From Flavobacteriaceae bacterium (lineage in GTDB: Bacteria > Bacteroidota > Bacteroidia > Flavobacteriales > Flavobacteriaceae), in NCBI GenBank assembly GCA_025800395.1, contig JAOXRU010000012.1, positions 1 to 64,000 on the forward strand: 64,000 bases of DNA. Reading direction: 5' to 3'. Below the pieces are notes generated by a model, which had not been told where the DNA came from, searched no databases, and worked only from the letters and a program-made list of their open reading frames with translations. Below, piece after piece: positions 56,349-63,586 of the stretch (positions are counted from its first letter, which is position 1; each line of letters begins with the position of its first letter). The position numbers and the translations under genes were made by a program.

Positions 56349-56461
56349 AGATTTAAGACCTTGTAAAGATGAGAAAAAAAAATCACCCTACTAAAGTAGC
56401 TAATTTCTTTATCATAACAAAACTATAACTTACAATACACGGTCTTTTTTTTAACAATCTT

Positions 56462-56539
56462 ATACCATTTCTTATTTGAAATGCCCTTAAAAAGGGAAAA
56501 AGACTATTTATTGGGGTAGTTTTAAATAAGAAATGGTAT
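56462..56539. repeat. Palindromic 'aaatggtat' element with 16-bp inverted ends
   Basis: ATACCATTTCTTATTT (56462-56477) and AAATAAGAAATGGTAT (56524-56539) are perfect inverted repeats around a 46-base interior that includes CCCTT-aaa-AAGGG (56484-56496). Single arms lie at 994-1024 and, weaker, at 21061-21085. It is probably a small non-autonomous element. Confidence 0.6.
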
Positions 56540-56907
56540 TGGGTACTAAAAGATGCTGATAGACAGAAATTACAAATAAAAAGTAGCTACGAATGGGATA
56601 TTGGTTTTCTAAAAAAACAATACTTCGGATGGTCTCGTCAAACAAACACCAAGATTCTTGCAGAGTAGCGGTCTTACTTCTTGTAATAGTTTTGAGTTGT
56701 GAGATCTGGGTATTGCGTAAATTATACATGTTGCGCCTTCCTTCGTTTGAAACAATGTATCTATGTAGCAATGTTAATCTATAACCCTATACCCTTTTAA
56801 GCATACATTTAAAGTTTAAGATTTAAAATTGACTATCAAACTATTCCCTATTCGCTAATACTTCTAACTTTAAATATCACTAACTTTAAAAACTAACAAC
56901 GATCTAC

Positions 56908-57083
56908 ACCTATCGTTAGGTGGCCAATACGGCTCCTTATAGGTAGGCCTACCTATTTGAATAGGTTCAAAACCTATAATTATAGATGACGCAAGGGGGG
57001 CAGATAGGTGTACCACCTATAAAAATGCCAATAGTACCTATTGCAAGGGCTGGCATGCCTATAATAAGGGCTATAAGACCTAT
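56908..57083. repeat. Chain of ACCTAT/ATAGGT palindromes
   Basis: In 176 bases the hexamer ACCTAT or its complement occurs nine times (starts 56908, 56939, 56951, 56961, 56972, 57004, 57015, 57036, 57078). Neighbouring copies form overlapping perfect palindromes: ATAGGTAGGCCTACCTAT (56939-56956), ACCTATT-tg-AATAGGT (56951-56966), ATAGGTT-caa-AACCTAT (56961-56977) and ATAGGTG-tac-CACCTAT (57004-57020); CAATAG-tac-CTATTG (57029-57043) also occurs. Each copy can pair with either neighbour. It could be a protein-binding array, recombination site or decayed repeat. Confidence 0.75.
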
Positions 57084-57218
57084 TCGTTTAGGTATAAAAT
57101 AAATTAAAACACTGCATTTCATCGAATAATTACTTAAAACAGAGTATTAAAGTAATATTTTTCTTACATTTGATATAAATCATAAATCTCAAATCATAAT
57201 ATTTAAACCTTTATTACC

Positions 57219-57728
57219 ATGAAATCAAACAGTTTAGTGAATGTGCTTTTTGAGCAAGAGGACATCAAAAAAATCAGTAATCATATCGAGCAAATCAATA
57301 AGATTCTGAAAGGGAACGTAATTAACCTCAATGCCGAATCCCGCAAAAAATTCGGTTCTATAGGCGATGGCAATACCGTATTTGTAGACAAATGTCGTTC
57401 TTATATGAATGCCAATCCGGATACCATACCCAATAGTGTAGACAAAGAGGGCTTTGAGGTAGCTTATACTGGACGATCTTTGTTGCAACAGCCTATAAGA
57501 GAACTCAAAGGTGTGCTAGAAAAGTTGATAGACACCAAAATATTGTTGGATTATGACAATTATACCACCAGTTTGAGCTATTACCGCTATGTGCGCTTTT
57601 TGTCGGGGGAAAACCACCCTGGTATCAATACCATACATGACGATTTGAAGAAGCATTTTGCAAAATCAAAGAGCAATAACGCAGATTTGGATAATAATGA
57701 TACAGGGAGTAATCCTACATCTAGTTAA
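57219..57728 (+). CDS. Hypothetical helical protein
   Basis: A 169-residue cytoplasmic protein, mainly alpha-helical (EQEDIKKISNHIEQINKILKGN; then LLQQPIRELKGVLEKLIDTKILLD), with a disordered Asn/Asp/Ser-rich tail. No known family is recognised. It stands 136 bases after the palindrome chain and has a TACATTTG box at 57165-57172 and its own terminator (57776-57802). The sequence TTGATATAAATCAT (about 57170-57183) beside the -7 box is a degenerate dyad. Function unknown. Confidence 0.6.
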   Translation: MKSNSLVNVLFEQEDIKKISNHIEQINKILKGNVINLNAESRKKFGSIGDGNTVFVDKCRSYMNANPDTIPNSVDKEGFEVAYTGRSLLQQPIRELKGVLEKLIDTKILLDYDNYTTSLSYYRYVRFLSGENHPGINTIHDDLKKHFAKSKSNNADLDNNDTGSNPTSS

Positions 57729-57775: not shown

Positions 57776-57802
57776 AACCAACTGTTTTCAGTTGGTTTTT
57801 TG
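57776..57802 (+). terminator. Intrinsic terminator of the gene at 57219
   Basis: AACCAACTG-tttt-CAGTTGGTT (57776-57797) followed by TTTT is a strong 9-bp stem with T-run, about 50 bases after the stop codon. Confidence 0.85.
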
Positions 57803-63143: not shown

Positions 63144-63254
63144 TTTTCTATTTTTTTAATTAAACAATTTCTTACCACTATTTACGATATGGGAGCTATC
63201 GTTGTTGCTTGCAACATTGCAGTTGCATTGCCAGCATTGCCATTGCATTGCCAT

Positions 63255-63274
63255 CGGAAGGATATATCCTTCCG
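63255..63274. repeat. 20-bp perfect palindrome
   Basis: CGGAAGGATATATCCTTCCG, followed by TTAGCGATG, about 310 bases before the transposase start. It is a candidate REP hairpin for the neighbouring RAYT enzyme. Confidence 0.6.
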
Positions 63275-63280
63275 TTAGCG

Positions 63281-63431
63281 ATGTTGTTTCGCTTTTCGCT
63301 TTTCGCTTTCGCTTTTCGCTTTCGCTTTTCGCTTTCGCTTTTCGCTTTCGCTTTTCGCTTTGGCTTTCGTTTTTCGCTTTTCGCTTTGGCTTTCGTTTTT
63401 CGCTTTTCGCTTTTCGCTTTGGCTTTCGTTT
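63281..63431. repeat. Minisatellite of CGCTTTT-type units
   Basis: Tandem 13-base units CGCTTTTCGCTTT (about four copies) change into 26-base units that add GGCTTTCGTTTTT (three copies, the last irregular). Such tracts grow by slippage. On the minus strand the sequence encodes Lys/Arg/Glu/Ser repeats, without evidence of translation. Confidence 0.8.
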
Positions 63432-63586
63432 AAACAAAATTAAAGAAATTTTATTAAGGAGGTTCGTCGAAATTAAACACGCGCTTACCGAAATAAAACG
63501 GTGTGTTTGTCGAATAAAAAACATAATAATGGTAGTTATCACTATGTTTATTAGGAGAAGTGCTATGATGAAAAAGAGAACAGCTT

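Follow-up and report, generated by a model that had tools for sequence, protein, structure and literature searches.

A 21-nt-pitch DNA array beside one uncharacterised gene family across Bacteroidota points to an undescribed gene-plus-array module

Arrays with a pitch of 21 nt lie beside one uncharacterised gene family across the phylum Bacteroidota, and this association points to an undescribed module composed of a gene and a DNA array. The example from which the comparison starts lies in a stretch of 64,000 nucleotides of a Flavobacteriaceae bacterium (contig JAOXRU010000012.1, positions 1 to 64,000), here called the window, and consists of an array at 56908-57091 and a gene at 57219-57728 whose protein belongs to a family of about 160 aa. 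The gene-plus-array module of this family is well supported. The main reading of it, to which a probability of roughly 0.55 is given, is that the module has two parts, of which the array is the DNA half and serves as a helically phased binding platform for a protein of the module. The literature searched, which comprised open-licence papers only, holds no description of such a module, although absence there is not proof.

The Array in the Window

The initial annotation drew attention to a chain of nine copies of the hexamer ACCTAT/ATAGGT within the 176 bases from 56908 to 57083 and held that chance could not easily produce it. All nine were confirmed, with ACCTAT at 56908, 56951, 56972, 57015, 57036 and 57078 and ATAGGT at 56939, 56961 and 57004. 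The whole window contains 59 copies of the two hexamers versus 31.8 (sd 5.6) in dinucleotide shuffles, from which only about 0.09 copies would be expected in the 176 bases, so the claim stands. The orientation of the copies, described as alternating, is so for the first seven, but the rest continue in a single direction (> > >). When all hexamers of the window were compared for the tightness of their clustering, ACCTAT/ATAGGT was equalled or surpassed by poly-A and by a single low-complexity repeat near 63.3 kb, and by nothing else. No hexamer cluster in the window is denser than that of a low-complexity AAAGCGAAAAGC-type repeat at 63250-63550.

The periodicity of the chain, absent from the initial annotation, is a more telling feature than the number of hexamers. 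Taken as pentamers, the half-sites (CCTAT at 56909, 56952, 56973, 57016, 57037, 57058 and 57079; ATAGG at 56939, 56961 and 57004) fit one period, best at 21.3 nt, with a phase concentration of 0.997 that was equalled by 0 of 20000 random placements, and the self-similarity of 56900-57100 ranks period 21 first of 33. Since 21 bp are two turns of B-DNA, the array at 56908-57091, which is non-coding and assigned to neither strand, can be described as a series of some eight or nine units, each spanning two helical turns, defined by the sequence and the period test. Within it, at 56939-56956, lies a perfect 18-bp palindrome, ATAGGTAGGCCTACCTAT, that matches itself on the minus strand. The array scores above 8 in the test that was also applied to the arrays of relatives, and the 3' flank of the window gene has no period-21 self-similarity. 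Neither TRF nor a repeat finder detected the array when run on the window, because its units are too diverged.

Further ACCTAT/ATAGGT clusters, for which a genome-wide search had been suggested, were not found in the 4.17-Mb genome: no second array with the letters of the window array was met, paired-site patterns did not exceed a reversed-pattern control, and a DNA search with the array returned the locus itself as the sole match at E <= 0.001. A homology search with the array in 60 relatives gave matches at chance level only. Elsewhere in the window, at 56460-56542, there is a long-hairpin repeat of about 80 nt, MITE- or REP-like in character, with 44 matches in the genome and a fold z of -6.6, and a sub-threshold Rfam match to MIR5512 is due to this repeat. 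Another hexamer cluster, at 820-955 of locus L006 in the reduced genome G051, proved to consist of a 12-nt ATAGGTTTTTCT repeat in eleven copies and was rejected as unrelated to the module.

The Gene and Its Protein Family

The gene at 57219-57728, on the plus strand, encodes a protein of 169 aa that was placed by profile searches in a family of about 160 aa that is predicted to be all-helical and belongs to Bacteroidota. Between the array and the gene, at 57165-57172 on the plus strand, lies TACATTTG, which we take to be a match to the consensus TAnnTTTG and therefore a candidate Bacteroidota -7 promoter element; if it is one, transcription of the gene would start downstream of the array. A terminator-like hairpin with a T-run is found 3' of the gene, at 57776-57802 on the same strand.

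The gene had been considered an orphan, a view that is refuted by its relatives across Bacteroidota, which are nearly always accompanied by an adjoining 21-nt array. Relatives of the protein, at 20-40% identity, occur in 10 of 397 genomes of its taxonomic family, in 31 of 395 genomes of its phylum and, with a richer profile, in 37 of 296 genomes of its class, figures that depend on the profiles used. Some of the loci are near-duplicates of one another. The family is present in roughly a tenth of the Bacteroidota genomes sampled, often in several copies per genome. The protein falls into no family of Pfam, NCBIfam, PADLOC or PHROGs, a profile search of PDB sequences gave no convincing solved relative, and a single-sequence structure model, all-helical but of low confidence (pLDDT 57), retrieved nothing below E 0.1 in Foldseek. 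With the queries tried, no relatives were found in viral contigs, phages or plasmids. Most members carry a slightly negative net charge.

In a relative of the window genome (G373), the slot behind cbb3 oxidase and exporter genes in which the window gene lies is filled by two family genes, in the opposite orientation. Genes for large secreted-type proteins often, perhaps by chance, precede family genes on the same strand (L166, L178, L181, L185, L187, L188, L197, L200, L211, L212, L219, L220, L233 and L237).

Association of Array and Gene across Loci

In the 450 nt 3' of 63 unselected family genes, the mean autocorrelation peaks at lags of 21, 42, 63, 84, 105 and 126, and the 5' flanks of the same genes are nearly flat. 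An independent set of 43 flanks, taken from newly fetched loci, gave 21 or 22 as the best of 33 periods in 37. In a census of 105 family loci, arrays with a 21- or 22-nt period were present 3' of the gene at 84 and 5' of it at four, three of these 5' only, and at 18 there was none; as a background control, 1 of 1120 window tiles passed. The window array is thus a rare 5' case, unlike the arrays of most family loci. A strict detector was also applied to 980 kb of DNA from elsewhere, made up mostly of chance matches to one 16-nt pattern, and gave one match, in Sunxiuqinia dokdonensis. This array, found blind by its DNA pattern, sits 3' of a family gene, so that the DNA side by itself also leads to the link between gene and array.

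Each locus has array letters of its own, even where a single genome contains several paralogues, and the pitch is the same throughout, at 21 or 22 nt, or 42-44 for double units. Since it is the spacing that is conserved and not the letters, the partner array was hidden from sequence similarity, and periodicity scans can reveal genetic modules of this kind that homology searches miss.

A typical array measures about 180 nt and begins about 100 nt past the stop codon of the family gene. Terminator-like hairpins lie between stop codon and array in 29 of 61 cases, versus 8 in shuffled sequence and 8 in the 5' flank, and the gap contains few promoter-like sites, although this is a weak test. The self-complementarity of the units exceeds that of phase-permuted arrays in 25 of 47 arrays (at most 3 of 60 nulls), and in a second set in 18 of 37 (at most 5 of 100). 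Rough symmetry is therefore a property of about half of the arrays, and the other half is not clearly palindromic; the idea that all arrays are palindromic was dropped after L012, L158 and some others were tested and found not to be. At L163 and L183 (genome G535), two family genes are accompanied by a strongly repetitive 42-nt array region, two copies in a row.

At 23 loci, the array is closely followed by a third gene on the same strand. Fifteen of these genes encode a helix-turn-helix (HTH) protein (L147, L151, L189-L191, L229-L233, L240, L242, L247, L250 and L251), which is Cro-like, about 100-126 aa long and weakly similar to HTH_26/HTH_3. The other eight encode an 81-aa protein (L239, L241, L243, L244, L248, L249, L252 and L253), whose family spans 81-86 aa, ends at the C-terminus in DGSGWxVKR-like residues and has no Pfam match. 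The arrays that adjoin either gene end close to its start codon.

DNA or RNA

The most serious alternative, although an unlikely one, is that the array acts as RNA: its tandem 21-nt units would be transcribed, and the transcript would bind the ~160-aa protein, after the fashion of a type III toxin-antitoxin system. The succession of gene, terminator and tandem array resembles the type III layout, and arrays near the start codons of the HTH and 81-aa genes could lie in a leader. The window array also folds somewhat better than its shuffles, with a z of -3.1 on the plus strand and -2.2 on the minus strand, but this is a moderate difference only, and the covariance models of Rfam 15 gave no match on the array. 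Among 13 aligned related arrays, the consensus fold is weak, compensatory changes are found at 2 of 22 predicted pairs, and the opposite strand has a similar energy. The RNAalifold energies are better than those of shuffles, equally so on the two strands, but they are small, and for this reason the arrays are taken as palindromic DNA sites and not as RNA. The mismatches in the palindromes comprise 31 G:T and 28 A:C, which is the expected proportion and has no strand preference, so that neither strand looks like a functional RNA. On these same figures, the suggestion in the initial annotation of an RNA that switches between alternative hairpins is unsupported. The lack of a G:T excess over A:C, the little covariation, the scarcity of promoter-like sites between gene and array and a pitch that equals two turns of DNA together favour double-stranded DNA, and leave to RNA a small share of the probability.

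Conservation and Mobility of the Cassette

In one genus (14 genomes), a block that extends from the promoter region to the end of the array is shared at 72-89% identity, and gene and array form a cassette of about 960 bp that occurs in several unrelated surroundings. At L263-L269, the flank upstream of the cassette contains several copies of repeats of about 60 nt. The presence of a discrete cassette in different surroundings, its patchy distribution (31 of 395 genomes) and its several copies per genome would suit a mobile element, in which the array would be the end or the recombination site, the gene would be cargo and a recombinase would act in trans. However, no recombinase recurs among the neighbours, the array flanks the gene on a single side, no duplication of a target was established, and the queries tried found no copy in phages, plasmids or viral contigs, all of which makes this explanation quite improbable. 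Recombination or repeat amplification may be the route by which arrays grow and move.

The conservation within the cassettes bears on whether the array has a function at all. Between L012 and L158, the arrays are identical at 221 of 240 positions (92%) without gaps, as against 28 of 45 (62%) at four-fold sites, and across 14 cassettes the conservation is 0.68 in the array, 0.60 at four-fold sites, 0.58 in the 3' spacer and about 0.43 outside. Conservation inside the array rises and falls with a period of 21 nt (r 0.19, permutation p 0.0004). The array is conserved above synonymous sites and is inherited with the gene as one cassette. A neutral, functionless expansion of tandem repeats in the 3' flank of the gene is accordingly hard to credit: it would account for the near-perfect recent duplications that form the arrays of L222 and L227, and for the great differences between the arrays of relatives, but not for conservation beyond that of four-fold sites or for a gene-array association that is phylum-wide. 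Phase would likewise be preserved in a tandem repeat that has decayed, but this would leave unexplained the 21-22 pitch common to arrays of unrelated sequence. Finally, although 21 nt are seven codons and one minus-strand frame of the window is open for 51 codons, a coded heptapeptide repeat is very unlikely, as one-base phase slips in the window (43-nt steps) and lags of 22, 43 and 44 nt elsewhere break the frame, and most frames contain stops.

A Proposed Mechanism

The pitch, the association with the gene, the constraint on the array and its inheritance in a cassette are best explained by a binding platform, and from them we infer a mode of binding, an assembly and a purpose. The array would work as double-stranded DNA. 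Half-sites on one face of the helix would be occupied by copies of a protein of the module, either the ~160-aa family protein or the HTH or 81-aa protein, lined up next to one another, and the assembly might control the promoters of the module itself or build a nucleoprotein structure at the locus. Since the letters of the half-sites are specific to each locus and the pitch is held, recognition would be cognate and quickly diverging. Where the array overlaps the promoter or leader of an HTH or 81-aa gene, a role as operator is likely. As most loci have neither gene, such a binder cannot be universal, and at those loci the family protein would be the first candidate. A binding array for a regulator had been among the options of the initial annotation and is the one that fits best, although the helical pitch and the link to a gene family were missing from it.

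Several observations speak against the platform. A DNA binder would not usually have the slight net negative charge that most family proteins carry, clear palindromes are lacking in about half of the arrays, and the window array lies 5' of its gene, unlike most. A broader picture can be offered tentatively: a phylum-wide Bacteroidota module in which the ~160-aa protein and a two-turn-pitch array, quickly rewritten and specific to each locus, combine into cognate nucleoprotein complexes, and in which the third gene, HTH or 81-aa, is interchangeable. Such a module might be a defence unit, or a chromosomal element of a selfish or segregation-like kind. If the array is indeed a binding platform, the loci would amount to a natural collection of protein-DNA pairs that match each other and share one fixed geometry, and the unnamed ~160-aa family could be approached directly through it.

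Comparison with Known Systems

The closest geometry is that of the centromere arrays of plasmids (sopC, with its 43-bp repeats, and parC sites) and of replication iterons of about 17-22 bp. These too are tandem, helically spaced and often dyad-symmetric sites beside a small gene, with specificities that diverge between copies; the pitch here is 21-22, and binding is the inferred part of the likeness. Unlike them, the module is chromosomal, its array lies 3' of the gene for an unrelated helical protein, and the letters are not shared between loci. No ParA, ParM, TubZ or Rep gene is a recurrent neighbour in the 1.5-2 kb flanks of the 105 loci, and no plasmid match was obtained.

Type III toxin-antitoxin systems (ToxIN, CptIN and TenpIN) likewise combine a small protein gene, an intrinsic terminator and tandem repeats in one locus. 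Their pitch, however, is about 36-45 nt as opposed to 21, the signals of RNA structure are weak in the present arrays, and in type III systems the array is upstream of the toxin gene with the terminator between them, whereas here 84 of 105 arrays lie 3', often beyond a terminator. The window array is 5' of its gene, yet upstream of the candidate promoter, which again differs from type III. As regards a toxin of the ToxN/AbiQ fold, the family protein matches no toxin family in the libraries searched, Pfam and PADLOC among them, and its low-confidence model is helical.

Integron cassettes with attC sites also consist of one gene and a 3' element that keeps its structure rather than its sequence, and move as a cassette, but the element here is a tandem array of 8-10 units and not one folded attC site, and no integrase was seen among the recurrent neighbours of family loci. 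REP/BIME elements with RAYT genes are similar in that short palindromic repeats are tied to a gene family; the repeats here differ in being tandem and locus-specific, and the family protein has no transposase match (Y1, RAYT). A CRISPR array was rejected, given a degenerate unit that measures 21 nt in total and the lack of recurrent cas neighbours. Where tested, the module fails a defining feature of each of the systems that it resembles, which are centromere and iteron arrays in its geometry, type III systems in its layout and integrons in its mobility.
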